A stretch of DNA of 64,000 nucleotides from Terriglobus aquaticus. GTDB taxonomy: Bacteria > Acidobacteriota > Terriglobia > Terriglobales > Acidobacteriaceae. The DNA is taken from NCBI RefSeq assembly GCF_025685415.1, contig NZ_JAGSYB010000001.1:3534001-3598000 (forward strand), written 5' to 3'. The notes under the pieces were generated by a model, which saw nothing but the letters and a program-made list of their open reading frames with translations, was not told the DNA's origin and ran no database searches. Shown here one piece after another: positions 36,245 through 50,775 of the stretch (within the stretch, counting starts at the first letter, position 1; every line of letters starts with the position of its first letter). The position numbers and the translations under genes are program-made.

Positions 36245-37270
36245 TTGATCGAAGCCGTCGTTGTCTGGAACGAGCCGAACAACCTGTCCCATTGGAACTT
36301 CCACCTGGACCCGGGCTGGCAGCAGTTCGCCGCCATGGTCAAAGAGGGTGCGGCGGCAATGCGCTCAGTGAACCCGGTGCTGCCCATCGTCCTGGGCGGT
36401 GTGTCGTCCGGCGACCCGGACTGGCTCCGCCTGCAGGCTGGCTACGGAGTCATGGAGCACGTCGATGCCGTTGCCATCCACGGCTTTCCGTTGGACTGGA
36501 ATCACTGGCAGCTCACCGAGTGGCCGGAAAAGATTCGCGAAGCCGAACAGGTCACCGGACGACCGGTCTGGGTCACAGAGGTCGGCTGCTCGTCCTTTGG
36601 CTTGGAGGAAGTCGCCCAGATGGGCTTCCGCCGCACGATCGATCTCCTGCGCGGCAGAACTCCCCGCATCCACTGGTACTCGTTGTACGACCTGCCGCCA
36701 AGCTGGCCCGCAGAAACCCGCCATAAAGAGGCAGAGGGCTCCAGCTATTACCGGCATTACTATTTGGGCCTCTTGCGCCACGACGGCACGCCCAAGCTGG
36801 CCGCCGCGGACTTCCCAACGGACGGCTCCGTGGGCCTGTGCCAGTGGTTCCACTGGCAGGACCATCGCCTCGACGATGCGGTCGCTTGGATGCGTGAGCA
36901 CGAGGTGCAAAATCTGCGCACCGGGCTGAGCTGGGCCGATGCGTACCGCCCGGACGCCGAGGCCTGGTTCGACCACGTCTTCACCCAGCTTTGGCCCTTC
37001 CAGGTCGCCATGACCCTGTGTTTCACGCCGGGGCACCTGGGCAAGGAAGACCACCACACCAGCCCGCCGCTGGACAACGCCGACTTTGCCGAGTTTGCCG
37101 CCTGGGCCGTGGAACGCTACGCCTCCCCTGGCCAGACCGTTCCGGTCAACCCCAACTCCCGATCGCTGTATGACCTTTCCCAAATGCGTCGCCGCCACGC
37201 CGAGCTGAACGCGCAGCACCAGGTCACCAGCCCCGCACAAGTCTCGAAAGAAGAGGTCCTCGCCGTTTGA
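36245..37270 (+). CDS. Clan-A-like glycosidase with TIM-barrel strands in swapped order
   Basis: A 341-residue putative retaining glycosidase related to GH39/beta-xylosidase-type barrels. The acid/base motif VVVWNEPNNLSHWNF comes at once (Glu10) and the nucleophile is Glu112 in PVWVTEVGCSS. Beta-8 is RIHWYSLYD. Strands expected at the start of such a barrel appear at the end instead: VGLCQWFHWQDHRLDDAVAWM (about 196-216), NLRTGLSWADAYRP and VAMTLCFTPG, with the alpha-3-like helix EFAAWAVERYA. So the order is beta 4-8 then 1-3. The start is a TTG at 36245 with AAAGGG upstream; codons before it look non-coding. The stop overlaps the epimerase start (TTGA), making it the first gene of the glycan operon. 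Confidence 0.75.
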   Translation: MIEAVVVWNEPNNLSHWNFHLDPGWQQFAAMVKEGAAAMRSVNPVLPIVLGGVSSGDPDWLRLQAGYGVMEHVDAVAIHGFPLDWNHWQLTEWPEKIREAEQVTGRPVWVTEVGCSSFGLEEVAQMGFRRTIDLLRGRTPRIHWYSLYDLPPSWPAETRHKEAEGSSYYRHYYLGLLRHDGTPKLAAADFPTDGSVGLCQWFHWQDHRLDDAVAWMREHEVQNLRTGLSWADAYRPDAEAWFDHVFTQLWPFQVAMTLCFTPGHLGKEDHHTSPPLDNADFAEFAAWAVERYASPGQTVPVNPNSRSLYDLSQMRRRHAELNAQHQVTSPAQVSKEEVLAV

Positions 37271-38424
37271 GCATCCAGAGCGCACAATCTCTCCCGTCCA
37301 CCCAGAAGCGCAACGTCCTCATCACCGGCGGCGCCGGCTTTGTCGGCTCGCACCTGGCCGATGGCCTCTTGCGCCAGGGCCACGCCGTCCGCGTTCTGGA
37401 CGATCTGACGCCCCAGGTCCATCCCGGCGGCGTCCGGCCCGACTACCTGTCCAACGACGTCGAGCTGGTCCACGGCGACGTGCGCGATCCCAACCTGCTC
37501 AAGAGCGTGCTGGAAGGCATCGACGTGATCTACCACTTCGCCGCCACGGTCGGCGTGGGCCAGAGCATGTACGAAATCAGCCGCTACATGAGCGTGAACA
37601 CGCAGGGCACCGCGGAACTGCTGCAGGCCGTGCTCGACACCAAGGCGCCGGTCCAGAAGATCGTCGTCGCCTCCTCCATGTCCATCTACGGCGAAGGCCG
37701 CTACGTGGGCGCCGATGGCAAGCGCTACGCTCCTCCGGTCCGCACCGTGGAGCAACTGAAGCGCGGCGAGTGGGAGGTTTCGGTCGGTGACTCCGGCGCG
37801 TTGAAGCCGGTTCCCACCGACGAGGACAAGCCTAGCGAGATCAACTGCATGTATGCCCTCTCCAAGCGCGACCAGGAAGAGCTCTGCATGATCTACGGCC
37901 GCACCTACGGCCTGCCGGTGACGGCCCTGCGCTTCTTCAACATCTACGGCACCCGCCAGGCACTGTCGAACCCGTACACCGGTGTCGCCGCCGTATTTGC
38001 CTCGCGCATGCTCAACGGCCGCCAGCCGCTCATCTTTGAGGACGGCGAGCAGCAGCGCGACTTCGTCTCCATCCACGACATCGTTCGCGCCAACATCCTG
38101 GCGATGGACGCCCCGAAGTCGAATGGGGAAGTCATCAACGTCGGCTCCGGGAACCCGGTTTCGATCCGTCGCGTGGCCGAACTGCTGGCCAACGCTCTGG
38201 GCAGCAAAGGCTTGGAGCCTGTGGTCACCGGTAAATACCGCGCCGGCGACATCCGGCACTGCTACGCCGACATCTCCAAGGCGCGCGCGCTGCTCGGTTA
38301 CGAGCCGCAGGTGACCCATGAAGAAGGTTTCGCCGAGCTTGCCGACTGGCTCGCCGGCCAGGAGGCCGAAGACAAGGCAGACACCATGCTGCAGCAACTG
38401 GCGGCACACGGATTGACCGCCTGA
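37267..38424 (+). CDS. NAD-dependent sugar-nucleotide epimerase/dehydratase (extended SDR)
   Basis: An extended short-chain dehydrogenase of 385 residues acting on a nucleotide sugar. The Rossmann motif is VLITGGAGFVGSHLADGLL, VVASSMSIYGEG holds the catalytic Ser, and MYALSKRDQEELC the Tyr-xxx-Lys pair. DFVSIHDIVRANILAM is the usual substrate-domain motif. It resembles UDP-glucose 4-epimerase or GDP-mannose-type epimerases, but has an unusual Lys/Glu-rich insert after the Ser motif (YVGADGKRYAPPVRTVEQL). The start is TTG, overlapping the glycosidase stop. The exact reaction is open. Confidence 0.92.
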   Translation: MSIQSAQSLPSTQKRNVLITGGAGFVGSHLADGLLRQGHAVRVLDDLTPQVHPGGVRPDYLSNDVELVHGDVRDPNLLKSVLEGIDVIYHFAATVGVGQSMYEISRYMSVNTQGTAELLQAVLDTKAPVQKIVVASSMSIYGEGRYVGADGKRYAPPVRTVEQLKRGEWEVSVGDSGALKPVPTDEDKPSEINCMYALSKRDQEELCMIYGRTYGLPVTALRFFNIYGTRQALSNPYTGVAAVFASRMLNGRQPLIFEDGEQQRDFVSIHDIVRANILAMDAPKSNGEVINVGSGNPVSIRRVAELLANALGSKGLEPVVTGKYRAGDIRHCYADISKARALLGYEPQVTHEEGFAELADWLAGQEAEDKADTMLQQLAAHGLTA

Positions 38425-38583
38425 GTGGCGCGGTAAACACAAGGAAGCAACCTTTTTGGTGCAACGGGTGTTCCTGTGCCGTGAAACCCGCATCTATTCC
38501 CATAAAGGTACAAAGAACAGGTACATTCGTTGGAGTACCCTGGAACGTCAGTTCGAGGCACGAAAGGTAATAACGCGACCAGA

Positions 38584-39717
38584 ATGGCAGTGCAGCGCGA
38601 GATCCTGATCACCGGTGGCGCCGGATTTGTCGGTGCAAACCTGGCAGCTCGGCTCCTTGCCGAAGGCGGCAACAACGTCGCCATCTTCGACAACTTGTCG
38701 CGTCGCGGCACCGAGCACAACCTGAGCTGGCTGCGTACCCTGCCCCAGGCGAAGAACCTGCGCTACATTCACGGGGACGTACGCAATGCGCAACAGGTGA
38801 GCGACGCCGCTCGCTACGCGACGCAGATCTACCATCTGGCTGCACAGGTCGCCGTGACGACCAGCATCACCGACCCCAAGTGCGACTTTGACACCAACGC
38901 GCTCGGCACCTTCCACGTCCTCGAAGCGGCGCGCCGGCACGGTCGCCAGCCGATGGTGTTCTTTACCTCGACGAACAAGGTGTACGGTTCGCTGGAATCG
39001 GTTCCGGTGGAAAAGGCCGGCACTCGCTATCGGGCCACGGATCGAAAGTTCATCGGAGCGGACGAGAGTACGCCGCTCGACTTCCACTCGCCCTACGGCT
39101 GCAGCAAGGGCGCGGCGGACCAGTATGTCCGCGACTACGCGCGCATCTACGACCTGCCCACCGTAGTCTTCCGCATGAGCTGCATCGCCGGCCAGCGCCA
39201 GTTCGGCAATGAAGACCAGGGTTGGGTCGCCCACTTCCTGTACAGCGTGCTCTCCGGTCGGGCCATCACGGTCTACGGCGACGGCCTCCAGGTCCGGGAC
39301 ATTCTGCACATCGACGACCTGGTGAATGCCTTCGTCGCCGCCCGGGACAACATCGGCAGCACCGCCGGGCATGTCTACAACGTCGGCGGCGGCATGGGCC
39401 GCGCCATCTCGATTCGCGAACTCCTCGAAAAGATTGAACGGCGCGTGGAGCGCCCTGCTCGGCTCGAGTTCAGTGACACCCGGCCCGGCGATCAGCCGCT
39501 GTACGTCTCGAACACCACCCGCCTCGAGAGCCACACGGGTTGGAAGGCCGCACTTTCACTGGATCAGATCCTCGACAGTATTGAGGCGTTCTACTCCGCC
39601 AACCGCGGCCTGATCGCGCAGCGACCCGCCGCTTCCGCGGATGCCAAACCGCTGTCCGACAAAGGTTTTTCGTCCGCGCTGTCCACCCCGGCGCTGGCCA
39701 CGGCGGAGGCGCGGTGA
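38584..39717 (+). CDS. NAD-dependent epimerase resembling CDP-paratose 2-epimerase
   Basis: A second extended SDR of 377 residues. EILITGGAGFVGANLAARLL binds NAD. VFFTSTNKVYGSLE and SPYGCSKGAADQYVRDYARIYDLP carry the catalytic residues. The TNKVYG wording and QVRDILHIDDLVNAF are typical of CDP-paratose/tyvelose 2-epimerases (RfbE type). I chose ATG at 38584; a TTG at 38530 (AGG eight bases upstream) would add 18 residues not typical of the family and cannot be excluded. Two AGGTACA heptamers (38506-38512 and 38519-38525) lie just upstream. The stop overlaps the radical SAM start (GTGA). Confidence 0.9.
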   Translation: MAVQREILITGGAGFVGANLAARLLAEGGNNVAIFDNLSRRGTEHNLSWLRTLPQAKNLRYIHGDVRNAQQVSDAARYATQIYHLAAQVAVTTSITDPKCDFDTNALGTFHVLEAARRHGRQPMVFFTSTNKVYGSLESVPVEKAGTRYRATDRKFIGADESTPLDFHSPYGCSKGAADQYVRDYARIYDLPTVVFRMSCIAGQRQFGNEDQGWVAHFLYSVLSGRAITVYGDGLQVRDILHIDDLVNAFVAARDNIGSTAGHVYNVGGGMGRAISIRELLEKIERRVERPARLEFSDTRPGDQPLYVSNTTRLESHTGWKAALSLDQILDSIEAFYSANRGLIAQRPAASADAKPLSDKGFSSALSTPALATAEAR

Positions 39718-41027
39718 AGTTTGCCCTGGTCAACCCGCATTGGTCGTGGGAGGGCTCGACCTACTTCGGCTCGCAGGCGCCCGTGGTCCCGCTGGAACTG
39801 CTGGGAGCGCGTGAGTTCCTGCGCCGCGCCGGCCACGAAGTCCTGCTGATCGACGCATTCCTGCTGAAGCTGACGACGGACGAAGTGCGCGTCCAGCTTG
39901 AGGGCTTCGGCGAAGACTTCCTTGTCATGCCCACGGCGAACAGCTACCTGTTCTGGCGCTGCCCGCAGCCGGAGCTCCGCGTGCCCCAGGCCTGGCTGCG
40001 CGCCCTGACCACCGGCCGCACGCACCGTCCCACCACCGTCATCATCGGACCGCATGGTTCGTCCACGCCTATCGCCACGCTCAATAAGACCGGCGCCGAC
40101 GTGGTTCTGCGTGGCGAGCCGGATTCCAACCTGCCGCTGCTGGCCACCACGCCGCGCTTCGCCATTCCGGGCTGCGTGTGGAAAGAGAACGGCCGCGTGA
40201 TGCAGGCCTCCGAGCCGCTCGGCGTGGTCGACATGAAGATGGTGTCGCACCTGGACTTTAGCGACTACCCCATCGAGCTGCACACGCACAAGCACCACAT
40301 CTTTACGCCGGTCGAAGGCCTGGGCGCTGAACTCGAATTTGCTCGCGGCTGCCCCTACGCCTGCACCTTCTGCAACAAGACACAGTTCCGCAACAAGTAC
40401 CGCGAGCGCGACGTCGCCGAGGTGGTCGCGGAGATCGACGCGCTGATGGCGCGCGGCGTCACCTACATCTACTTCATCGACGAAATCTTTGGCGTCGGCA
40501 AGAACGTACGCACTCTGCTGGAAGAGATCGCGAAGCGTCCTTCGCTGTCCATCGGTTTCCAGACCCGCATCGACCTGTGGGACGAGGCAGGATTCGACCT
40601 GCTCGGCCGCGCCCACTGCATCAGCATGGAGTGCGGCATCGAGAGCATCACCGAGCAGGGCCGCGACGAGATGAACAAGAACTGCAAGTACTCCACGGAG
40701 CGCATCACCGAGCTCCTGGTGTACGCAAAGACCCGCATCCCCTGGGTGCAGGCAAACCTGATCAAGACACCGCACGACAATCCCGAAGAGGTGCGCGCCT
40801 TCCAGGATCATCTGAAGGCCAACGGCGTCTGGGTCTCTGAGCCGGTGCCTATGTTCCCCTTTCCCGGATCTCCTGAGTACGTCACGACCTTCGGCGCGCA
40901 GCCGGACGACCGTGCCTGGGAACGGGCCCATGAGTTCTACCTCAATCTCTTCGCGGACAAGGGATTCTCCGACATCCAGGATCAGCAACCCATTCCGCTG
41001 CCTGAACTCGAGTCTGCATGCCGCTGA
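39714..41027 (+). CDS. Radical SAM protein with B12-binding-type N-terminal domain
   Basis: A 437-residue radical SAM protein. The N-terminal 160 residues have the Rossmann-like layout of cobalamin-binding domains (ALVNPHW, HEVLLIDAFL, TTVIIGPHGSSTP, GADVVLRGEPDSNLPLL). The canonical DxHxxG cobalt-ligand motif is not evident. The radical SAM core starts at Cys213-xxx-Cys217-xx-Cys220 (RGCPYACTFCNKTQFRNKYR). YIYFIDEIFGVG and SMECGIESITEQGRDEMNKN are later barrel strands. Such proteins methylate or rearrange unactivated carbons. With two epimerases upstream and glycosyltransferases downstream, a modified sugar is the likely substrate. The start is GTG, overlapping the upstream stop. Confidence 0.9.
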   Translation: MKFALVNPHWSWEGSTYFGSQAPVVPLELLGAREFLRRAGHEVLLIDAFLLKLTTDEVRVQLEGFGEDFLVMPTANSYLFWRCPQPELRVPQAWLRALTTGRTHRPTTVIIGPHGSSTPIATLNKTGADVVLRGEPDSNLPLLATTPRFAIPGCVWKENGRVMQASEPLGVVDMKMVSHLDFSDYPIELHTHKHHIFTPVEGLGAELEFARGCPYACTFCNKTQFRNKYRERDVAEVVAEIDALMARGVTYIYFIDEIFGVGKNVRTLLEEIAKRPSLSIGFQTRIDLWDEAGFDLLGRAHCISMECGIESITEQGRDEMNKNCKYSTERITELLVYAKTRIPWVQANLIKTPHDNPEEVRAFQDHLKANGVWVSEPVPMFPFPGSPEYVTTFGAQPDDRAWERAHEFYLNLFADKGFSDIQDQQPIPLPELESACR

Positions 41028-41188
41028 TTCGTTCCCAGGTTTGTTGCCCCCGATTCCGCTTTGCAAATGCCTGGTAGTGCCGTCTCTGCTTTGCCTAATT
41101 GCCTCGCCTGTTTGGCTCCCGCAAAGCCTCAATCGTTTGATCCAGCAGCACCTTTCGCTGCTGGTCCTGCGTTGACCCGGATGAGTTC

Positions 41189-42301
41189 ATGCGCATCCTG
41201 ATGACCACCGACACTGTCGGCGGCGTGTGGACCCAAACGCGAGAACTGGTTGCAGGTCTGCTGCGGGCCGACCCCTACATTCGCATCTTCCTCTTTGCCG
41301 TCGGAAGCACCTGCAGCCCGGAACAACTGGGCTGGCTGCGGGCCATGCGCGAGCGCAACCCGGGCCGGTTCGACTCCGCGGTTCACTCCGTGCCGCTGGA
41401 GTGGGAGCAGCGCAACGACCAGGTCGATCCGTTCGAGCCGCGCCTGCTCAGCATTGCGCGAACGTTTGCTCCGGAAGTCTTTCACAGCTCACAATTCTGC
41501 TACGGCGCTCTTCCGGTGGATTGCCCGCGCCTGGTGGTCGCCCACTCAGACGTTCTGTCCTGGTTTCGAGAGGTTCACGGAACAGAGCCGGAGCCGTCGC
41601 CCTGGATCGACCGGTACGTCTCGCTGGTGCGCCATGGCGTGGAGCAGGCATCCGCAGTCGTTGCACCCACCCGATGGATGCTGCAGGCCTTTCGTGATGG
41701 CTTCCCCGCTCCGGCACACACACGAGTCATTTACAACGGCGTCAGCTTTCGGCCTCGCCCACCGCAGGAGCGGCTGCTGCAGGCGGTGACCGCGGGACGT
41801 CTGTGGGATCAGGCCAAGAACGTGGCCCTCTTGCAGCGCCTGCAACACCCAGCCGTACCCCTGCTTGTCGCGGGAGCTTCGCAGCACGAGAACGAGACTC
41901 TGAAGTGGAAGGGCAGCGAGGCAATCCAATTGCTCGGCAACACCTCGCGCCGCGACCTGCTCTCGCTCTTCGCGCAATCGGCAATGTATCTGTCGACCGC
42001 GATCTACGAGCCATTTGGCCTTTCAGCGCTGGAAGCCGCGCGCTCCGGCTGCGCCCTGCTTGCGCTGGATATCGAATCCATGCGGGAGGTGTGGGGCAAC
42101 GCTGCCTTGTACTTCCGCACCGTCGAAGAACTCGCTGCAGCGATCGAGCACCTCGCCAGCTCGCCCAGGGCGTTGGCCCTGGCGCAGCAGCAAGCCGAGG
42201 CCACCGCCGCCCAGTACACGCGCGAGCGCATGGCAGATTCCTACCGCGCGCTCTATCGTGAACTGATGGATTCACCCCGGGGGAACTCTGCCGTTGCTTA
42301 G
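41189..42301 (+). CDS. Glycosyltransferase family 4 protein
   Basis: A 370-residue GT-B retaining glycosyltransferase. The N-terminal half begins RILMTTDTVGGVWTQTRELVAGLL. The nucleotide-sugar half shows RVIYNGVSF, VTAGRLWDQAKN and the GT4 E-x7-E motif YEPFGLSALEAARSGCALLA. It is probably cytoplasmic, extending a glycan on a nucleotide-sugar donor. It follows the radical SAM gene after 161 bases that contain an 8-bp hairpin (41142-41164), so transcription may be modulated here. Its end overlaps the next gene by eight bases. Acceptor and donor unknown. Confidence 0.92.
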   Translation: MRILMTTDTVGGVWTQTRELVAGLLRADPYIRIFLFAVGSTCSPEQLGWLRAMRERNPGRFDSAVHSVPLEWEQRNDQVDPFEPRLLSIARTFAPEVFHSSQFCYGALPVDCPRLVVAHSDVLSWFREVHGTEPEPSPWIDRYVSLVRHGVEQASAVVAPTRWMLQAFRDGFPAPAHTRVIYNGVSFRPRPPQERLLQAVTAGRLWDQAKNVALLQRLQHPAVPLLVAGASQHENETLKWKGSEAIQLLGNTSRRDLLSLFAQSAMYLSTAIYEPFGLSALEAARSGCALLALDIESMREVWGNAALYFRTVEELAAAIEHLASSPRALALAQQQAEATAAQYTRERMADSYRALYRELMDSPRGNSAVA

Positions 42302-43424
42302 CATCGCCATCTTTCTGCACACGTTGCGCTCCGACTGGAACAATGGCAATGCCCACTTCCTGCGCGGTCTGGCGCGCGAACTCGGGTCGCTTGGCCACAC
42401 CGTGCGCGTCCTTGAGCCGGTGACCAACTGGAGTGTCGAGAACCTGCGCACAGAGCCAAACGGCGAAGCCTCGCTGGCGCAGTTCGCCACGACGTACCCC
42501 GACATCGACCTGCGACTCTACGACCCGACTGACCCGGACCTGCGCAACGAGCTCATGCGCGAACTGCACGGCTTCGATGCCGTGATAGTGCATGAGTGGA
42601 ACGAGCGCGGACTGATCGATCTCCTCCTCGACCTGCGGTCGGAACTCGGCTTCCGCGCTCTCTTCCATGACACGCATCACCGCGCCTCCTCCTCACCCGA
42701 GGCGATCCGGTCGCTGCGTGTCGACGAGTTCGACGGCGTGCTCGCCTTTGGCGACGCGCTCACGAAGATCTACAAGGAGCGCTTCGGCATCACGGAGTGC
42801 TGGACGCTGCACGAAGCCGCGGACACCACCGTCTTCTACCCGCGCGAGGCGCCCACCGAGCAGGAGCTGATATGGGTTGGCAACTGGGGAGACGGCGAGC
42901 GGTCCGCCGAACTGCGCGAGTTCCTGATCCGTCCGGCCAGGCGTTTGCGCGAGCAATACGGCCCTGAGGGCTTTCGTGCCACCATCTACGGCGTGCGCTA
43001 TCCCGCCGACGGTCTGGCCGCGCTCGCCGATGCCGGCATTCGCTACGGCGGCTATCTTCCGAATCTCGCCGCGCCGGACGTGTACGCGCGAAGCCGCGTC
43101 ACGATGCACGTTCCGCGCCAGCAGTACAACGACGCGCTCACAGGCATCCCGACCATCCGCGTCTTCGAGGCGCTCGCCAGCGGCATCCCGCTCGTCTCCG
43201 CGCCCTGGCAGGACACCGAAGAACTCTTCCGCCCGGGCGACTTCACCCTCGTCTCAAACGGCGAAGACGCGTACGAAGAGCTGAACTTGCTGCTGGATCC
43301 CGAAGAACGCGACAACGCGCAGGCACAGATCGAACAGGGACTCGCCACCGTGCTCGCGCGCCACACCTGCGCGCACCGCGCGGCGCAACTCACGCGCATC
43401 CTCACCGAGGAGGTGCTGGGATGA
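42294..43424 (+). CDS. CgeB-like glycosyltransferase (first of three)
   Basis: A 376-residue GT-B protein of the CgeB type. It opens LSIAIFLHTLRSDWNNGNAHFLRGL, a wording shared with the copies at 44171 and 47251 (SWGNGHATTFRAL). The second half has ELIWVGNWGDGER, GGYLPNLAAPDVYARSRVTMHV and the donor-site IRVFEALASGIPLVSAPW. Bacillus CgeB is linked to spore-surface glycosylation; here the partner is unknown. The start is TTG inside the upstream gene. The stop overlaps the next start (ATGA). Confidence 0.87.
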   Translation: MLSIAIFLHTLRSDWNNGNAHFLRGLARELGSLGHTVRVLEPVTNWSVENLRTEPNGEASLAQFATTYPDIDLRLYDPTDPDLRNELMRELHGFDAVIVHEWNERGLIDLLLDLRSELGFRALFHDTHHRASSSPEAIRSLRVDEFDGVLAFGDALTKIYKERFGITECWTLHEAADTTVFYPREAPTEQELIWVGNWGDGERSAELREFLIRPARRLREQYGPEGFRATIYGVRYPADGLAALADAGIRYGGYLPNLAAPDVYARSRVTMHVPRQQYNDALTGIPTIRVFEALASGIPLVSAPWQDTEELFRPGDFTLVSNGEDAYEELNLLLDPEERDNAQAQIEQGLATVLARHTCAHRAAQLTRILTEEVLG

Positions 43425-43777
43425 CCTTCGCCCAGTGCAGCTGTGCATTGCTTTTCGCATCCACCTTGGTTTGCTCGGCAGCCACGCTGCACGGCCGGGT
43501 GAAAGACCAGCGGTGCGCGGTGTTGCCGCAGATGCAGGTCCGCATCCGCGCGACCTCGCCGCAGCAGGGATTAGAGCGCTCCGCTTCCACCGACGACGCC
43601 GGCAACTACACGGTTGATCTGCCCCCGGGCGAGTACCAGGTGTGCGTGCAGCGCGACGCACACGCCAGCCCCACCTGCACCGGCATCGCCATCTCCGCCA
43701 GGGGCGACACATGGATCACCACGCAACTGCGCGACACCGCGCCTGACCTCTCCAACTTCGGCAACCGCTGGTATTAG
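43421..43777 (+). CDS. Small secreted carboxypeptidase-regulatory-like protein
   Basis: A 118-residue exported protein with a short signal peptide (CALLFASTLVCSAATLHG) and a single Ig-like/CarboxypepD_reg fold. GRVKDQRCAVLPQMQVRIRA is strand A-B, and ASTDDAGNYTVDLPPGEYQVCV is the family motif. It contains six cysteines including the signal region, and two pairs could form disulfides. It is translationally coupled to the CgeB-like gene by ATGA, so it probably belongs to the glycan system, perhaps as a carrier or binding protein (inference). It ends in a 4-base convergent overlap with a reversed membrane gene. Confidence 0.75.
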   Translation: MTFAQCSCALLFASTLVCSAATLHGRVKDQRCAVLPQMQVRIRATSPQQGLERSASTDDAGNYTVDLPPGEYQVCVQRDAHASPTCTGIAISARGDTWITTQLRDTAPDLSNFGNRWY

Positions 43778-44172
43778 GGAAACTTGGTCGTGTTATGCGG
43801 GGTCGTATGCCGCAGACGCTTTACAAGACTCCAACTCCAGATCAGATTGACGAGTACGCCGACTGCGGCAGGACCATAAGGACCGTGACGAAACATCCAG
43901 GCGCTGACATACAAGGAGATCTGCAAGAGTACGAGCATGCCTACCGATAAGTAGCGATTCCATCTCGTCCGGCGAACCGGGCGTTCTCCGGCACGCAATC
44001 TTCTCCTAAAGTCCATAGCGATGAAGGCTAGCGCGACACAGAGGAAAAGCAGTATGACTACTGTCAGTTGGTCGCTGTTGACCACGCCCGTAAGTCCCAC
44101 TCCAACAGCAGCCAACACGGCAATCAAAAGCCAGATGGTGTAAGCCAGACGGTTCACGGAAAGAATGTACAT
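43774..44172 (-). CDS. Small four-helix membrane protein, reversed within the glycan cluster
   Basis: No family recognised. The 132 residues form about four hydrophobic helices: IWLLIAVLAAVGVGLTGVV, LTVVILLFLCVALAFIAM, YLSVGMLVLLQISLYVSAW and AAVGVLVNLIWSWSL. An Arg-rich loop (RRRLRAGERPVRRTRWNR) lies in the middle. Its ATG overlaps that of the next gene on the other strand (CATG at 44170-44173), and its 3' end overlaps the previous gene. It is the only opposite-strand gene between 36245 and 50775, and its plainer, less GC-skewed sequence suggests it was inserted later. Confidence 0.6.
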   Translation of the reverse strand: MYILSVNRLAYTIWLLIAVLAAVGVGLTGVVNSDQLTVVILLFLCVALAFIAMDFRRRLRAGERPVRRTRWNRYLSVGMLVLLQISLYVSAWMFRHGPYGPAAVGVLVNLIWSWSLVKRLRHTTPHNTTKFP

Positions 44173-45286
44173 GAAGATTTTCGCCTTCGGCTCGTCGCTC
44201 GTCTCCAGCTATTGGAACGGCGCGGCCACCTACTATCGCGGTTGTTACAAGTACCTGGCGCGCCTCGGCTACGAAGTCACCTTCGCCGAACCCGATGCCT
44301 ACGGCCGCCAGACGCACAAGGACGACGTTGATCTTTCGTTCGCGAACCTGGTCACCTACAAGCCCGTGGGCAGCGAAGGCGACTTCGGCCACGGTCCCGA
44401 CTACGATCACCTGCCGACGCTGCACGAGGTCTTTGAGGAAGCGCGCAAGGCCGACGTCGTCGTGAAGCACTCCGGCATCGGCGTGGACGACGCGCTTACG
44501 GAATCACTGATCCTCGAAGCGCAGCCGCACGCGCTCGCCATCTACTGGGACGTCGACTCGCCCGCCACGCTCGCGCGCATGGACGCGGACCCGAACGACA
44601 GCTTCCGGGCCGTTGTGCCACGGCTCGACGCGATCTTCAGCTACGGCGGCGGCCCCGTCTGCCGCGAAGGCTTCGAGCGCTACGGCGTGCAGCACTACAT
44701 CCAGGCCTACAACGGCCTCGACCCGGAAACGCACTATCCCGTCGCGCCCGATCCGAAGTACGCCTGCGATCTTGCCTTTCTCGGCAATCGCCTTCCCGAC
44801 CGCGAGGCACGTGTCGAAGAACTCTTCCTGCGCGCCGCCGAACTCGCACCCGACCAGACCTTCCTGCTTGGCGGCGAGGGTTGGGGCGACAAGCCGATGC
44901 CACCCAACGTGAAGTACATCGGCCACGTCCCCACCGCCCAGCACAACGTGCTCAACTGCTCCGCGCGCACCGTGCTCAACATCAACCGTGCCAGCATGGC
45001 GAACAGCGGCTTCTCGCCACCGACGCGCGTGTTTGAGGCCGCCGGCGCCGCCGCCTGCATGCTGTGCGACGACTGGCCGGGGCTCGATGACTGCTTCCAG
45101 CCCGACACCGAAATCCTCGTCGTGCGGAACGCCGAAGACGTCGTCCGCCATCTGCACACCCACGACGCCGCGGCCACCAAACGCATTGGCCAGGCATTCC
45201 TCCAGCGAGCCCTGCGCGACCATACCTACGCGCAACGCGCCGCGCAGGCCGACGATGCCATTCGCTTCCTCAGAGGAAAGCGATAG
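44171..45286 (+). CDS. CgeB-like glycosyltransferase (second of three)
   Basis: A 371-residue GT-B protein. It begins KIFAFGSSLVSSYWNGAATYYRGC. AIYWDVDSPATLARM (about 120-135), AIFSYGGGPVCREGFERYG and VLNINRASMANSGFSPPTRV are typical CgeB-family blocks, with FEAAGAAACMLCDDWPGLDD at the donor site. I took the ATG at 44171 (GGAAAG seven bases upstream) rather than one two codons earlier. Same family as its neighbours at 42294 and 47251, but well diverged, suggesting three different linkages rather than gene amplification. Confidence 0.9.
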   Translation: MKIFAFGSSLVSSYWNGAATYYRGCYKYLARLGYEVTFAEPDAYGRQTHKDDVDLSFANLVTYKPVGSEGDFGHGPDYDHLPTLHEVFEEARKADVVVKHSGIGVDDALTESLILEAQPHALAIYWDVDSPATLARMDADPNDSFRAVVPRLDAIFSYGGGPVCREGFERYGVQHYIQAYNGLDPETHYPVAPDPKYACDLAFLGNRLPDREARVEELFLRAAELAPDQTFLLGGEGWGDKPMPPNVKYIGHVPTAQHNVLNCSARTVLNINRASMANSGFSPPTRVFEAAGAAACMLCDDWPGLDDCFQPDTEILVVRNAEDVVRHLHTHDAAATKRIGQAFLQRALRDHTYAQRAAQADDAIRFLRGKR

Positions 45287-45313
45287 CATAGGCCTTCACC
45301 ACAGGAGGCCGCG

Positions 45314-45820
45314 ATGAGTGCTGAAGCAAAGCCGGAAGTGCCCTATGTGTACCTGCTCGAGGGCCGCGACGCAGGCGACGCGATGCGAACGACGCCGGGG
45401 GAACTGCAGGGGCTCTTCGCAGCGTTCTCAAGCGCGGAGATCGACGCGGTTCCCGCGCCCGGCAAGTGGAGCCTTCGCGAACAGATGTGTCACCTTGCCG
45501 ATTGCGAGATCGCCTGGGCGTGGCGGCTGCGCCAGACCTTCGGCGAAGACAACCCGGTGCTGCAGTCGTTTGAGCAGGACCCATGGGCGCGCGCTTACTC
45601 TGGCAAGTCCTTCACCTTCCCGGCTGCTTTCGAAACCTGGCGAACCATCCGCGAATGGAACCTTGCCTTCCTCGATGCGCTGAGCGAAGACGATAAGAAA
45701 CGGCCGGCGACTCATCCTTCCGCCGGTCCCATCACGCTGTGGAATCTTATCGAGATCGCGGCCGGCCACGATCTTCATCACCTCGCGTCTCTCCGCAAGC
45801 TCCGGGACAGCCGCGCCTGA
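45314..45820 (+). CDS. DinB-family protein
   Basis: A 168-residue four-helix-bundle protein of the DinB/YfiT type. The metal-ligand histidines are placed by KWSLREQMCHLADCEIAWAWR and IEIAAGHDLHHLASLR. Some members are thiol-dependent S-transferases and others are stress proteins of unknown activity. A good AGGAGG precedes the ATG. It sits between two CgeB-like genes with only short gaps, so it may be co-transcribed, but no functional link to glycans is evident. Confidence 0.88.
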   Translation: MSAEAKPEVPYVYLLEGRDAGDAMRTTPGELQGLFAAFSSAEIDAVPAPGKWSLREQMCHLADCEIAWAWRLRQTFGEDNPVLQSFEQDPWARAYSGKSFTFPAAFETWRTIREWNLAFLDALSEDDKKRPATHPSAGPITLWNLIEIAAGHDLHHLASLRKLRDSRA

Positions 45821-45872
45821 ACAGAGTTACGATGCATCAGTCGATCTGCAGACCTTTGGTGAGAGCACATCC

Positions 45873-47210
45873 ATGCGGCGTTTGGTGTTCCTGTTTCTTT
45901 TCGTTCTGTGGATCGGCAGCGGCACGTTGCGTGCGCAGGGAACTACGGCCGAGCACATCGCAGAACGCGCCGCCCAGGCCGAGATCAACGAAACTCCACG
46001 CGATGGCAACCTTCGCTCGTACCGCCTTCCGCTCGAGGACCTGACCAAGGCCGAGCACCTGGAGCACACGCGCACACTGCTCGAAATTGGTGGCACGGCG
46101 TGGGGCATCATCTCGCTTTACCTCCTGCTGCACTTCGGCGTGATTGGCCGCATGCAGAGCGCTGTCACTTCGCGCTTTCGCAATCGATGGGCGCAGGGCT
46201 TCGCCTTCTTGTTGCTGTTTCTGCTTGCAACGACCCTGCTGGGCTTACCCCTGGATGTGTACAGCCAACACCTGCGGCGAAGCTACGGCCTCTCTGTGCA
46301 GAGTTGGGCGAGCTGGCTCGGAGACCAGGCCAAGAGTTTCGGTTTGAGCTGGGCGATTGGCGGCCTGCTTGTCATGCTTCTCTTCTTCGTCATCCGCAAG
46401 GCGCCGCAGCGATGGTGGCTCATTTTCTGGGCGGCGTCCATTCCCATCACACTCGTGGCCATCCTTCTCACGCCCTACGTCATCGATCCGCTCTTCAGTG
46501 ATTTCGAGCCGCTCAACGCCTCGCACCCTGAACTCGTGCAACGGCTCGAACAGGTGGTCGAGCGCGGCCACATGAACATTCCGCCAGATCGCATGTTCCT
46601 GATGAAGGCGTCGGAGAAAAGCACAACGCTCAACGCCTACGTGACCGGCTTCGGCGCCTCCAAGCGTGTCGTTGTATGGGACACTAGCATCGCCAAGGGC
46701 ACGCCCGACCAGATCCTGTTCATCTTTGGCCACGAATCCGGCCACTATGTTCTGCACCACATTGCGTGGGGTATCGCGCAGTCCATGCTTGGCCTGCTTT
46801 TGCTGCTGGCCGTCAGCTACCACCTGCTCACACCGCTGCTGTGGCGCTACGGCACACGCTGGGGCATCACCGTCCAGTCGCAGTGGGGAGCGCTCGCCGT
46901 CCTCGTGCTGATCTTCAGCGTCTTCGGCGCGGTTACGCAGCCCATCTCAGAAGCCCTGAGCCGCAGCAAGGAACACGCTGCCGACGTCTACGGCCAGGAG
47001 GCCATTCACGGCCTGGTTGCCGATCCCAAGGAGGCAGCGCGGAGCGCGTTTCAACTCCTCGGCCAGACCAGCTTCGACGATCCCAATCCCTCGCCCATCG
47101 TGGAGTGGTGGACCTACTCGCACCCGGCCATCGGCCGCCGCGCCGCCTTCGCCGCGCACTACGATCCGTGGCAGCCCGGCATGGAACCTCGCTACTTCCC
47201 AAAGCATTAG
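45873..47210 (+). CDS. M48-family membrane metalloprotease (Ste24/CAAX type)
   Basis: A 445-residue zinc protease. A signal-like N-terminus is followed by several membrane helices (FLLLFLLATTLLGLPLDVY and GGLLVMLLFFVIR among them). The zinc site is HESGHYVLHH, with the third ligand in SRSKEHAADVYGQEA. FLMKASEKSTTLNAYVTGFG is the conserved M48 block before the active site. In eukaryotes Ste24 trims CAAX proteins; bacterial relatives act in envelope quality control. It lies between glycosyltransferase genes with short gaps, perhaps by insertion into the cluster. Confidence 0.92.
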   Translation: MRRLVFLFLFVLWIGSGTLRAQGTTAEHIAERAAQAEINETPRDGNLRSYRLPLEDLTKAEHLEHTRTLLEIGGTAWGIISLYLLLHFGVIGRMQSAVTSRFRNRWAQGFAFLLLFLLATTLLGLPLDVYSQHLRRSYGLSVQSWASWLGDQAKSFGLSWAIGGLLVMLLFFVIRKAPQRWWLIFWAASIPITLVAILLTPYVIDPLFSDFEPLNASHPELVQRLEQVVERGHMNIPPDRMFLMKASEKSTTLNAYVTGFGASKRVVVWDTSIAKGTPDQILFIFGHESGHYVLHHIAWGIAQSMLGLLLLLAVSYHLLTPLLWRYGTRWGITVQSQWGALAVLVLIFSVFGAVTQPISEALSRSKEHAADVYGQEAIHGLVADPKEAARSAFQLLGQTSFDDPNPSPIVEWWTYSHPAIGRRAAFAAHYDPWQPGMEPRYFPKH

Positions 47211-47250
47211 CCGCGCCACGTCCGCTTGCAGCTTCTACAATGAAGCTCGC

Positions 47251-48333
47251 ATGAAGATCGTGATTCTCGGCCTGTCCATCACCTCGTCCTGGGGCAACGG
47301 CCACGCCACCACCTTTCGAGCGCTCTGCCGCGAGCTCCATCGGCGCGGCCACAGCATCACCTTCATCGAAAAGGACGTCGAGTGGTACCGCTCGAACCGC
47401 GACCTGCCGGAGCCGCCCTACGTCAAGCTCTGGCTCTATGAAGATTGGCAGCGCGACGGCATCGGCACGGTGCGCGACGCCATCCGGGACGCCGACAGCA
47501 TCGTCGTCGGCTCCTACTTTCCAGACGCCATCGCGGCCACCGCCCTCCTCCAGCAGGAAGCGAAAGCGCCCGTCCTCTTCTACGACATCGACACGCCCAT
47601 CACCATCGCTGCTCTGCGCCTGCACGGCCAGTGCGAATACCTGCGCGCACAGGACATCCCGTTTTACGCGGCGTATCTCTCCTTCACCGGCGGACCCACG
47701 CTCATGGAGATCGAACAGCGCTTCGGCTCTCCACGAGCCGTTCCGTTCTACTGCTCCGTCGATCCCGAGGCCTACCACCGCACTGCCGTGCAGCCGGAGT
47801 TCGCCTGCACCATGAGCTACCTTGGCACTTACGCCGCTGACCGCCAGCCCAAGCTCATGGAGCTGCTGAACGCTCCCGCCGCCGCCCTGCCCGGCGAGCG
47901 CTTCCTCGTTGCCGGCCCCATGTATCCCGCGGACACGCAGTGGACCCGCAACGTGGTCACGCATCCGCACCTGCCGCCATCCGATCATCCCGCGCTCTAC
48001 TCTTCCTCGCGCTGGGTGCTCAACCTCACGCGTGCGGACATGGTCGCCGCCGGCTACTCGCCCTCGGTGCGCCTCTTCGAGGCCTCGGCCTGCGGCGCGC
48101 CGATCCTCAGCGACGCGTGGCCCGGCATGGACGAGTTCTTCGCCCCGGGCAAGGAGATTCTGCTCGCCTCCAGCACCGATCAGGCGCTCAGCATTCTTCG
48201 CAACTTCGACGAAGCGGAAGCCCGCCGCATCGGCGAAGCCGCCCGCGAACGCACGCTGGCCAAGCACACTTCCGCCAGACGCGCCGAAGAGTTCGAACAG
48301 GTCATGAACGGCATCACCTCTGCAACCACTTAG
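47251..48333 (+). CDS. CgeB-like glycosyltransferase (third of three)
   Basis: A 360-residue GT-B protein beginning KIVILGLSITSSWGNGHATTF. Family blocks include VLFYDIDTPITIAALR, YLSFTGGPTLMEIEQRFG, and WVLNLTRADMVAAGYSPSVR with FEASACGAPILSDAWPGMDE. The start at 47251 is where the family begins. A TACAAT lies nine bases before it and a four-codon reading frame ending in ATGA overlaps it. It resembles the copy at 44171 more than the one at 42294 in its DIDTP/DVDSP motif. Only 12 bases separate it from the GH92 gene. Confidence 0.9.
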   Translation: MKIVILGLSITSSWGNGHATTFRALCRELHRRGHSITFIEKDVEWYRSNRDLPEPPYVKLWLYEDWQRDGIGTVRDAIRDADSIVVGSYFPDAIAATALLQQEAKAPVLFYDIDTPITIAALRLHGQCEYLRAQDIPFYAAYLSFTGGPTLMEIEQRFGSPRAVPFYCSVDPEAYHRTAVQPEFACTMSYLGTYAADRQPKLMELLNAPAAALPGERFLVAGPMYPADTQWTRNVVTHPHLPPSDHPALYSSSRWVLNLTRADMVAAGYSPSVRLFEASACGAPILSDAWPGMDEFFAPGKEILLASSTDQALSILRNFDEAEARRIGEAARERTLAKHTSARRAEEFEQVMNGITSATT

Positions 48334-48345
48334 TCACCTGCGACA

Positions 48346-50775
48346 ATGGCACGCATGCGTGTTCTTCGCACCGTCGCATGCCTCTGCCTTCTTGCTGCGC
48401 CACTCGCCGCGCAACGAAGCTCCACCTATGCGGACGTAGACCCGTTCATCGGTACCGGCGCGGAGGGTCACACCTTCCCCGGTGCATCGCTGCCCTTTGG
48501 CATGGTGCAGCTCTCGCCCGACACGCAGATCCGCCCCGTCAAGCAGAGCTACAAGTGGGCCGCCGGCTACCGCTACAGCGACACGACCATTCTCGGCTTC
48601 AGCCACACGCACTTCAGCGGTGCCGGCCACTCCGACTTGGGCGACGTACTCGTCCAGCCCATCAGCGGCGACGTGCGTCTCGATCCCGGCGACATCGACA
48701 AGCCCGAGAGCGGCTATCGTTCACGCTTTCAACACAAAACAGAAGAGGCGCACCCCGGCTACTACGCCGTCACGCTGGACGACTACAACGTCCGCGCCGA
48801 ACTGACCGCGACTACGCGCGTCGGCGTGCACCGCTACACTTTTCCAGCAGGCAAGCCCGCGCACCTGCTCATCGACCTGCGCTCGTCCATCTACAACTAC
48901 CCCGGCAAGGTCCTGTGGTCGTCGCTGCGCATCCGCCACGAGGGCGATGGCAGCACCACACTGACCGGCATGCGCGAGACCCGCGGCTGGGCACCCGCAC
49001 GCCAGCTCTTCTTCGCGATGAGGTTCTCCGCGCCGGTCACCGGAACCCATCTCTACAACCGCGAAGACCAGCCCATCCTTTACCGCGGCTTCAAGACACC
49101 CGGCGACACGCCCGAAGACACTCAGGCCATCGAAGGCCGCGGTATCGTCGCAGCGGTTGACTTCGCCAGTGCGCAAAAGCTGATTGTGAAAGTCGCGATC
49201 TCGCCCGTTAGCGAAGCGAACGCCCTCGCCAACATGCAGGCCGAGGTTCCCGCCTTCGACTTCGACGCGGTGCGTACGCAGGCCCAGCAGCGTTGGCAAG
49301 ACGTGCTCAGCATCCTGCGCGTCGACGCCGACGAGCCCACGCGCAAGACCCTCGCCACCGCGCTCTACCACTCGCTGCTCGCGCCTTCCATCGCCATGGA
49401 TGCGAACGGCGACTACCGCGGTCCCGACCACGCCGTGCACCATGCCGACGGCTTCAACTTCGTCAGCTCGCTCTCGCTCTGGGACACCTACCGCGCCGAG
49501 CAGCCGCTGATGACGCTCATCGAACCGCCGCGCGTCACCAGCGATCTCGTGCGCTCCATGCTCGCCTCGCAGCAGCAATCACCCTTCGGCATTCTTCCCG
49601 TGTGGCAGTTCGCCGGCATCGAGACGTGGTGCATGATCGGCTATCACGCCGTGCCCATCCTCGCCGACGCCATCATGAAGGGCATGGACAAGCCGGGCCC
49701 CGACACTCCCGGGTTCGACGCGAACGCCGCTCTCGACGCCATGGTCGCCTCCGCCGACTACCGACCCTACGGCCACATCGGCGAGTACATCGACAAGGGC
49801 TACATCCCCATCGACACGGGAGCGCCCGGTTCGCACGACGAGTCCGTTTCGCAGACCATCGAGTACGCCTTTGACGACTGGACCATCGCGCAGGTCGCGC
49901 GCAAGCTGGGCCGCAACGACATCGCCGACCGCTTCACCAAGCGCGCAGGCTACTGGCGCAACGTCTTCAACACCAAGGATGGCTTTGCCGAACCTCGCCT
50001 CGCCGACGGCAGCTATCGCAAGCCCTTCGACCCCGCCAAGGCCGGCGCCGGCTCAGGCTTCACCGAAGGCAACGCCTGGCAGTACTCCTGGTACCAGCCA
50101 CAGGACGAGCAGGGCCTCATCCAACTGCTCGGCGGAGACATCGCGCTCGTCGATAAGCTCGACAAGATGTTCGACCAGCACGTCGATCCCAAACAGTACG
50201 CCGACGTCGAAGACATCTCGGGCCTCATCGGCCAGTACATCCACGGCAACGAGCCATCGCACCACCTCGCGTATCTCTACAGCTACGCGGGCCAGCCCTG
50301 GCGCACCGACGAGCGGTTGCAGCAGATCATCAGCTCGCAATACCAGCCCACGCCCGACGGATTGGTGGGCAACGACGACCTGGGCCAGATGTCCGCCTGG
50401 CTGCTCTTCAGCGAAATGGGTTTCTACCCCGTCGCTCCGGGCTCCAACCAGTACGTCATCGGCCGCCCCTTCGCCCGCGACATCGACCTCCAACTCGGCA
50501 ACGGAAAACACCTGCACATCGTGGCGTCGCAACTCATCGACGAAAACAAGTACGTGCAGTCGGTCATGCTCAACGGCAAGCCAATTGACCGCGTCTACCT
50601 CACCCACGACGAACTCATGGCGGGCGGCACCCTGCGATTCGAAATGGGACAGGAGCCCAACCGCAAGTGGGCCGTCAGCCCCGCAGCCCGCCCTTACTCG
50701 ATGTCGTCCCCTGGCTCTTCCGATCAGCAGCCACGCAGGGTGAAGGCGCCGCGCAGCCGGCACTTGTGGCGTTAG
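48346..50775 (+). CDS. GH92-family alpha-mannosidase, exported
   Basis: An 809-residue calcium-dependent exo-alpha-mannosidase of family GH92. A signal peptide ends near LLAAPLAAQ. The N-terminal beta-sandwich has DPFIGTGAEGHTFPGASLPF and GFSHTHFSGAG. The catalytic alpha/alpha toroid has SLWDTYRAEQPLM, GNEPSHHLAYLY and GNDDLGQMSAWLLFSEMGFY, all family signatures. The tail after RPYSM is about 23 residues, longer than usual and Arg-rich. Following the glycosyltransferases by 12 bases, it probably trims mannose-containing glycans outside the cytoplasm, either recycling the cluster's product or feeding on foreign glycans. Confidence 0.95.
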   Translation: MARMRVLRTVACLCLLAAPLAAQRSSTYADVDPFIGTGAEGHTFPGASLPFGMVQLSPDTQIRPVKQSYKWAAGYRYSDTTILGFSHTHFSGAGHSDLGDVLVQPISGDVRLDPGDIDKPESGYRSRFQHKTEEAHPGYYAVTLDDYNVRAELTATTRVGVHRYTFPAGKPAHLLIDLRSSIYNYPGKVLWSSLRIRHEGDGSTTLTGMRETRGWAPARQLFFAMRFSAPVTGTHLYNREDQPILYRGFKTPGDTPEDTQAIEGRGIVAAVDFASAQKLIVKVAISPVSEANALANMQAEVPAFDFDAVRTQAQQRWQDVLSILRVDADEPTRKTLATALYHSLLAPSIAMDANGDYRGPDHAVHHADGFNFVSSLSLWDTYRAEQPLMTLIEPPRVTSDLVRSMLASQQQSPFGILPVWQFAGIETWCMIGYHAVPILADAIMKGMDKPGPDTPGFDANAALDAMVASADYRPYGHIGEYIDKGYIPIDTGAPGSHDESVSQTIEYAFDDWTIAQVARKLGRNDIADRFTKRAGYWRNVFNTKDGFAEPRLADGSYRKPFDPAKAGAGSGFTEGNAWQYSWYQPQDEQGLIQLLGGDIALVDKLDKMFDQHVDPKQYADVEDISGLIGQYIHGNEPSHHLAYLYSYAGQPWRTDERLQQIISSQYQPTPDGLVGNDDLGQMSAWLLFSEMGFYPVAPGSNQYVIGRPFARDIDLQLGNGKHLHIVASQLIDENKYVQSVMLNGKPIDRVYLTHDELMAGGTLRFEMGQEPNRKWAVSPAARPYSMSSPGSSDQQPRRVKAPRSRHLWR

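Follow-up and report, generated by a model that had tools for sequence, protein, structure and literature searches.

A conserved sugar pathway in Terriglobus aquaticus that combines a B12-type radical SAM enzyme, CgeB-like glycosyltransferases and a circularly permuted glycosidase

We analysed a 64,000 nt stretch of the Terriglobus aquaticus genome (assembly GCF_025685415.1, contig NZ_JAGSYB010000001.1, C1:3534001–3598000; hereafter, the window). Positions 36245–48333 of the window hold a gene cluster that encodes a glycosidase, two extended short-chain dehydrogenases/reductases (SDR1 and SDR2), a B12-type radical SAM enzyme, a GT4-type glycosyltransferase and three CgeB-like glycosyltransferases (CgeB A, B and C). 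This neighbourhood is genuine and conserved as a system, and its arrangement is no product of chance. Its function is one that we infer: the cluster may encode the larger part of a cytosolic pathway to a small soluble (or anchor-linked), inositol-containing, methylated oligosaccharide, a reading to which we assign a probability of roughly 0.4.

Relatives of the radical SAM protein numbered 168 in a scan of 84,980 GTDB species genomes. From the 80 best loci, the open reading frames were clustered de novo into gene families. Because many contigs are cut short, the resulting counts are mostly lower bounds. The radical SAM family was found in 81 loci, followed by SDR2 (64), SDR1 (59), the CgeB B/C family (58), CgeB A (56), GT4 (54) and the glycosidase (50). 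Four families that are not in the window also recur among the relatives: a methyltransferase (43 loci), a GT9-like family (24, including some mis-joined members), a nucleotidyltransferase (23) and a HAD phosphatase (15). The conserved order is glycosidase–SDR1–SDR2–radical SAM–GT4–CgeB A–CgeB B–CgeB C, while other groups carry a second block, CgeB D–nucleotidyltransferase–methyltransferase–glycosidase. Since the same ordered genes surround radical SAM relatives in Acidobacteriota, Alphaproteobacteria (among them Rhodoplanes, Skermanella and Mangrovicella), 'Deltaproteobacteria', Nitrospirae and a cyanobacterium, the arrangement goes far beyond chance. The radical SAM gene also lies on nine plasmid records, and is plasmid-borne in Azospirillum, Bradyrhizobium and Tistrella.

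Genome-wide profiles provide a second line of evidence. The radical SAM protein of the window and a methyltransferase encoded elsewhere in this genome are clear members of the NCBIfam families TIGR04295 (B12_rSAM_oligo) and TIGR04290 (meth_Rta_06860), respectively; both families are of the 'hypoth_equivalog' type and carry no assigned function. Among 396 Acidobacteriota genomes, TIGR04295 scores above its cut-off in seven and TIGR04290 in eight, with all seven contained in the eight (hypergeometric P = 2.8e-14, kinship among genomes left uncorrected). The glycosidase is present in exactly those eight TIGR04290 genomes, and in none of the 16 other genomes tested. The initial annotation, made from the letters of the window, had proposed an uncharacterised sugar pathway in which a swapped-barrel glycosidase, a pair of sugar epimerases, a radical SAM enzyme of the B12 type and CgeB-like glycosyltransferases take part, to be checked by the co-occurrence of glycosidase, radical SAM family and glycosyltransferases in other genomes. 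The proposal is supported, and the co-occurrence is strong.

About half of the pathway lies outside the window, in two other loci of the genome. The first, C1:3806537–3809197, holds the TIGR04290 methyltransferase (C1:3806588; 371.8 bits, cut-off 300) together with GT9-like and HAD genes. The second, C1:1550112–1552768, holds a fourth CgeB gene and a nucleotidyltransferase that is 74% identical to that of locus L007.

What is new here is the system as a whole, the permutation of its glycosidase and the swappable slot of its radical SAM gene; the radical SAM and methyltransferase families had been named earlier by NCBI curators. No paper in the literature searched mentions TIGR04295 or TIGR04290, and a literature search for the gene combination gave no match. 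As far as this literature goes, the permuted glycosidase, the split genome layout, the variants that lack the radical SAM gene and the inositol link are new. For two NCBI families of unassigned function there is now a defined and testable set of about twelve genes, and independent lines of evidence place these families in a single pathway.

The circularly permuted glycosidase

The initial annotation described the glycosidase as a 'swapped barrel', and this holds: it is a GH39/PslG-like barrel whose chain has undergone natural circular permutation. Instead of the canonical order beta-1 to beta-8, its strands run beta-4 to beta-8 and then beta-1 to beta-3. The chain begins directly at barrel strand beta-4, without a signal peptide, and in all aligned relatives a start codon is found seven residues ahead of the motif WNEPNN.

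Four results establish the permutation. Firstly, alignment to the canonical-order domain found in Tistrella (locus L093) falls into two exchanged pieces, with residues 5–187 matching 120–300 and residues 191–293 matching 10–114. Secondly, a profile alignment with PslG, the best PDB sequence relative, pairs residues 199–294 with 25–130 and residues 2–152 with 131–300. Thirdly, alignment scores rise by 16–44% when the sequence is rotated around residue 195, while those of an SDR control drop. Finally, the AlphaFold2 model is a complete eight-stranded barrel (pLDDT 85, pTM 0.84). Foldseek gave only half-barrel matches to clan GH-A enzymes of the PDB (TM score ≤0.37); its alignments depend on chain order, and cannot show a circular permutation directly. 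The catalytic residues Glu10 and Glu112, at the ends of beta-4 and beta-7, are invariant in 37 of 37 aligned relatives. With PslG and other GH39 endoglycosidases the protein thus shares both catalytic glutamates and a gene position inside a glycan-synthesis operon; unlike them, it is permuted, lacks a signal peptide and is set within a radical SAM pathway. Literature searches for permuted clan GH-A glycosidases, which were not exhaustive, gave only cases of the GH13/GH70 type.

The canonical form occurs in the same system. In loci L093 (11956–14004), L057, L059, L061 and L063, SDR2 carries an N-terminal glycosidase domain of canonical strand order, which is a pseudoenzyme in several genomes: catalytic glutamates are lost in motifs such as WNQPNN, WNHPNH and WANPEN, or TQTG and TGAG. 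Most of these fusion loci also carry a free-standing permuted copy, which, judging from its motifs, appears to be the active glycosidase. A canonical domain fused to SDR2 and a free-standing permuted one make a clean natural case of circular permutation within one gene cluster. A further canonical-order paralogue lies outside the cluster in locus L105 (genome G177, C17:15120–15974).

SDR2 and the radical SAM slot

SDR2 is closest to the CDP-tyvelose (paratose) 2-epimerases, matching TaTyvE (PDB 9RL0) with 280 bits and StTyvE (1ORR) with 270, against 119 for the next non-TyvE chain. The TNK segment is present in 62 of 63 family members and the YxxxK motif in all 63, and the window sequence reads STNKVYG and YGCSK at these sites. 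In TaTyvE the TNK segment is essential, and the variants N125A and K126A are inactive (PMC13098431). Because this segment and the Tyr/Lys pair are conserved across the family, SDR2 likely inverts a nucleotide sugar at C2 in an NAD-dependent reaction. At the cytosine lid of TaTyvE (Tyr203-Asp204) the window protein reads NEDQGW, retaining the Asp and replacing the Tyr by Glu; since Tyr203 covers the base, the nucleotide may be other than CDP. SDR2 thus resembles the TyvE enzymes in its TNK segment, its SDR-triad Tyr and Lys and its QGW loop, and departs from them in the Glu at position 203, in the pairing of its gene with a radical SAM gene and, elsewhere, in its fusion to a glycosidase domain. 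The closest relative encodes a second CDP-tyvelose 2-epimerase homologue upstream of the cluster (L004:3386–4408). The best PDB relatives of SDR1 are SDRs of the UDP-sugar 4-epimerase type, aligned in two pieces; the protein has a long insert after SSMSIYG and the catalytic motif YALSK.

The radical SAM protein matches TIGR04295 over the full model (1–422 of 422). Its CxxxCxxC motif lies at residues 213–220, and C213, C217 and C220 are invariant in 46 sequences. The Pfam B12-binding model does not match it, and a search of its own genome with that model gives only other B12 proteins. The AlphaFold2 model (pLDDT 92), however, has TsrM, MgmA, CysS, AprD4, OxsB and TokK as its nearest folds, at full length for TsrM, MgmA and CysS. 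By these matches the protein has a modelled N-terminal B12-type domain that Pfam misses, and the 'cobalamin-type domain' of the initial annotation was correctly called.

Minimal loci consist of SDR2 and the radical SAM gene with only a UDP-glucose dehydrogenase, or of methyltransferase, SDR2 and radical SAM genes; the radical SAM enzyme therefore works with SDR2. Stand-alone operons of SDR2, radical SAM and UDP-glucose dehydrogenase genes, without a glycosyltransferase and often near a transketolase, are seen in loci L024, L029, L033, L036 and L040, and their radical SAM proteins are ~61–63% identical to that of the window.

In six genomes with the cluster, the TIGR04295 model—positive in seven genomes—finds no match. 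In three of these (G259, G403 and G407, family f26; loci L108, L115 and L119) the place between SDR2 and GT4 is taken by a gene pair, 54–64% identical between genomes, that encodes an alcohol dehydrogenase of the zinc type together with a Gfo/Idh/MocA oxidoreductase. In the other three (G450–G452, family f88; loci L116–L118) GT4 directly follows SDR2 and the slot is empty; contig ends limit this reading of the slot in G403, G450 and G452. The MocA protein is nearest to inositol 2-dehydrogenase, weakly so at 103.5 bits (cut-off 355). With a dehydrogenase pair or nothing in its place, the radical step is therefore an exchangeable tailoring step. The replacement makes redox or epimerisation chemistry plausible for the radical SAM enzyme, while it is possible that the dehydrogenases instead install a different decoration. 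There is a precedent for such a swap, because the oxidation carried out by BtrN is in related pathways the work of NAD-dependent dehydrogenases. BtrN is a radical SAM dehydrogenase that oxidises the cyclitol 2-deoxy-scyllo-inosamine in the butirosin pathway (PMC9012708). Like BtrN and the AprD4/AprD3 pair of apramycin deoxygenation, the window enzyme is a radical SAM protein paired with a sugar or cyclitol dehydrogenase; unlike them, it shows remote sequence similarity only, its partner SDR2 is an extended SDR of the epimerase type, and BtrN itself has no B12 domain.

The competing reading—compatible with the proposed pathway—is that the enzyme is a methylcobalamin-dependent C-methyltransferase that makes a branched-chain sugar. 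Most characterised B12-radical SAM enzymes methylate, and the best folds include the B12-dependent methylases TsrM (TM score 0.66–0.70), MgmA and CysS. Profile matches include BchE and rSAM_ocin_1 C-methyltransferases, and one of the methylating B12-radical SAM enzymes, GenK, acts on a sugar ring (PMC4039129). Yet the diol dehydratase AprD4, which shares this architecture, comes close in fold (TM score 0.65) and is the best PDB sequence match (33.5 bits; 36.8 bits against the AprD4 family NF033070, below its cut-off of 500). AprD4 has the same fold and does not methylate, and the dehydrogenase pair found in the slot cannot methylate either. The fold does not separate methylation from other radical chemistry. 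We regard C-methylation as a serious contender that falls somewhat short of even odds, and hold redox or epimerisation chemistry and C-methylation to be about equally likely. Of the unusual, perhaps C-methylated sugar foreseen in the initial annotation, the uncharacterised pathway with a radical step thus stands and the C-methylation is unproven, the slot holding a dehydrogenase pair in three genomes and nothing in three. Radical SAM, dehydrogenase and empty versions of one operon slot amount to a natural experiment, and can reveal the chemistry of this B12-radical SAM family.

The proposed product of the pathway

In the proposed pathway, the acceptor would come from an inositol-3-phosphate synthase (IPS), and GT4 would attach the first sugar to it, the role that MshA has in the mycothiol pathway. 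The phosphate would then be taken off by a phosphatase whose type (HAD, His-phosphatase or HD) varies with the lineage, and three to four CgeB-like glycosyltransferases would lengthen the chain. The nucleotidyltransferase would make the nucleotide sugars, which SDR1 (probably at C4) and SDR2 (at C2, by redox chemistry with bound NAD) would reshape. The radical SAM enzyme would come in together with SDR2 and modify either that nucleotide sugar or the nascent glycoside in a single tailoring reaction, which other lineages would perform differently—through the zinc-type alcohol dehydrogenase and Gfo/Idh/MocA oxidoreductase—or omit. The TIGR04290 methyltransferase would cap the chain, and the permuted glycosidase would trim, edit or transglycosylate it inside the cell. 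Gene content and linkage, profiles, conserved catalytic residues, the permutation and the replacement in the slot are direct results; the inositol acceptor in this genome, the order of the steps and the radical chemistry are what we infer.

The inositol link comes from gene positions. In Azospirillum, Bradyrhizobium, Rhodoplanes and one further alphaproteobacterium, an IPS gene forms part of the cluster. A distant IPS type (24% identity) lies within ~5 kb of the CgeB D–nucleotidyltransferase–methyltransferase–glycosidase block in G259, G403 and G407 (f26), G451 (f88) and G177 (f7); in a model that places genes uniformly, such proximity in three of six families has P ~4e-7. Three unrelated kinds of phosphatase (His_Phos, HAD and DUF4202/HD) stand beside the clusters, by lineage, and a PIG-L deacetylase with a further GT4 is found in loci L059, L075 and L078. 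By analogy, IPS, phosphatases and PIG-L resemble glycosyl-inositol (GlcN-inositol) chemistry. Mycothiol synthesis (IPS, MshA, a phosphatase and MshB) is similar in that it shares IPS, GT4 and a phosphatase with the system, as well as the PIG-L deacetylase present in some loci. It differs from the present system, which has four CgeB glycosyltransferases, two NDP-sugar SDRs, a radical SAM enzyme, a methyltransferase and a glycosidase, and neither the MshC ligase nor MshD was seen in the neighbourhoods.

Several observations weigh against the proposed product. IPS is unlinked to the cluster in this genome and in other Terriglobia, and all the acidobacterial genomes tested (24 of 24) have it, whether or not they carry the cluster. 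Its presence profile is thus uninformative and only its position carries information; the case for inositol is correspondingly weaker for the window's own product, and inositol could have been added in particular lineages only. PIG-L was not seen together with the in-cluster alphaproteobacterial IPS in any locus. GT4 falls below the mycothiol and bacillithiol cut-offs (19.8 bits against 462.5 for MshA; 35.6 against 273.7 for BshA). Several clusters carry UDP-glucose dehydrogenase and UDP-xylose synthase, which point to uronate or pentose donors that have no place in the scheme. Export by an unlinked transporter is also possible.

The foremost alternative product is a surface polysaccharide, or a decoration of lipopolysaccharide or exopolysaccharide. 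Exopolysaccharide operons typically encode glycosyltransferases and sugar epimerases, along with UDP-glucose dehydrogenase and a glycosidase resembling PslG, and PslG is the closest structure in sequence to the glycosidase. However, the recurrent neighbour families include no flippase, polymerase, ABC exporter or initiating phosphoglycosyltransferase, the glycosidase starts at a barrel strand, and hydropathy reveals no transmembrane segment or signal peptide in the core proteins. A cytosolic or lipid-linked product fits these observations better. The surface glycan suggested in the initial annotation is accordingly unsupported, and we consider such a polymer unlikely.

Alternatively, the chain could be built on phosphatidylinositol or another inositol lipid (a glycosylinositol lipid resembling the phosphatidylinositol mannosides) instead of free inositol. 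This would account for the linked IPS and the GT4-type first glycosyltransferase, and no polymer exporter would be needed; yet the accompanying phosphatase suits a soluble inositol phosphate, and neither a phosphatidylinositol synthase nor an acyltransferase recurs, making a lipid product quite unlikely. Least probable is a specialised metabolite (an aminoglycoside-like antibiotic or a signal) from a mobile biosynthetic cluster: the patchy distribution (7/396 genomes), the plasmid locations, the AprD4-like enzyme and the cyclitol synthase speak for it, but aminotransferase, resistance and export genes do not recur, and in this genome the parts are spread over three loci, unlike typical antibiotic clusters.

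The inositol oligosaccharide reading can be widened. It is conceivable, if rather doubtful, that soil and aquatic bacteria from several phyla use the system to make an intracellular metabolite of a new class: an inositol-based methylated pseudo-oligosaccharide, one sugar of which would be epimerised or oxidised by a B12-type radical SAM enzyme, replaceable in other lineages by an NAD-type dehydrogenase pair. Its editing enzyme would be a clan GH-A glycosidase, the first in that clan known to be circularly permuted by nature.

Gene arrangement in the window

The genes that make up the system are listed in Table 1. All those claimed in the initial annotation are present on the + strand, and the TTGA, GTGA and ATGA overlaps it reported are real.

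Table 1. Genes of the system in the window, with their positions and supporting matches
Gene product	Position in window	Strand	Supporting match
Circularly permuted GH39/PslG-like (clan GH-A type) glycosidase, predicted cytosolic	36245–37270	+	PF11790, weak, 25.7 bits
SDR1, extended SDR of NDP-sugar epimerase/dehydratase type	37267–38424	+	PF01370, 172.7 bits
SDR2, relative of CDP-tyvelose 2-epimerase	38584–39717 (open frame from 38530)	+	PDB sequence matches
Radical SAM enzyme with predicted B12-binding domain	39714–41027	+	TIGR04295, 573.7 bits (cut-off 400)
GT4-type glycosyltransferase, weakly BshA/MshA-like	41189–42301	+	PF00534, PF13439
CgeB-like glycosyltransferase A	42294–43424	+	PF13524, 107.7 bits (cut-off 25)
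CgeB-like glycosyltransferase B	44165–45286	+	PF13524, 124.3 bits (cut-off 25)
CgeB-like glycosyltransferase C	47251–48333 (start at ATG 47251; open frame from 47017)	+	PF13524, 139.3 bits (cut-off 25)

The overlaps lie at 37267 (TTGA), 39714 (GTGA), 42294 (8 bases) and 43421 (ATGA). SDR1 and SDR2 are separated by 105 bases, or 159 to the likely SDR2 ATG, and 161 bases precede GT4, whose position directly after the radical SAM gene is conserved among relatives.

Three genes between the CgeB genes were rejected as members of the system. The small secreted protein (43421–43777, CarboxypepD_reg), counted as part of the cluster in the initial annotation, has matches in none of the other loci searched, the DinB gene (45314–45820) has a match in one other locus, and the M48 gene (45873–47210) is matched only within its own genome; being unmatched, or almost so, in the other loci, they are bystanders. 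CgeB C adjoins CgeB B in most relatives, and in the window the DinB and M48 genes lie between the two.

General-stress-type genes adjoin the cluster in loci L007, L016, L021, L023, L055, L062, L065 and L072 and in the Tistrella locus L093. Recurring flanking genes include general-stress SDRs, DUF892, YgaP/SRPBCC (polyketide-cyclase) and zinc alcohol dehydrogenase genes, with Ku and LigD in Tistrella; for a stress role or a stress metabolite they are only a hint. In metagenome-assembled contigs, the radical SAM gene of L046 and the glycosidase and SDR2 genes of L066 appear split, probably through frameshifts or assembly errors. Downstream of CgeB C, the window carries a GH92-type gene (48346–50775), which is kept in this position only in the two closest relatives (L004 and L005).

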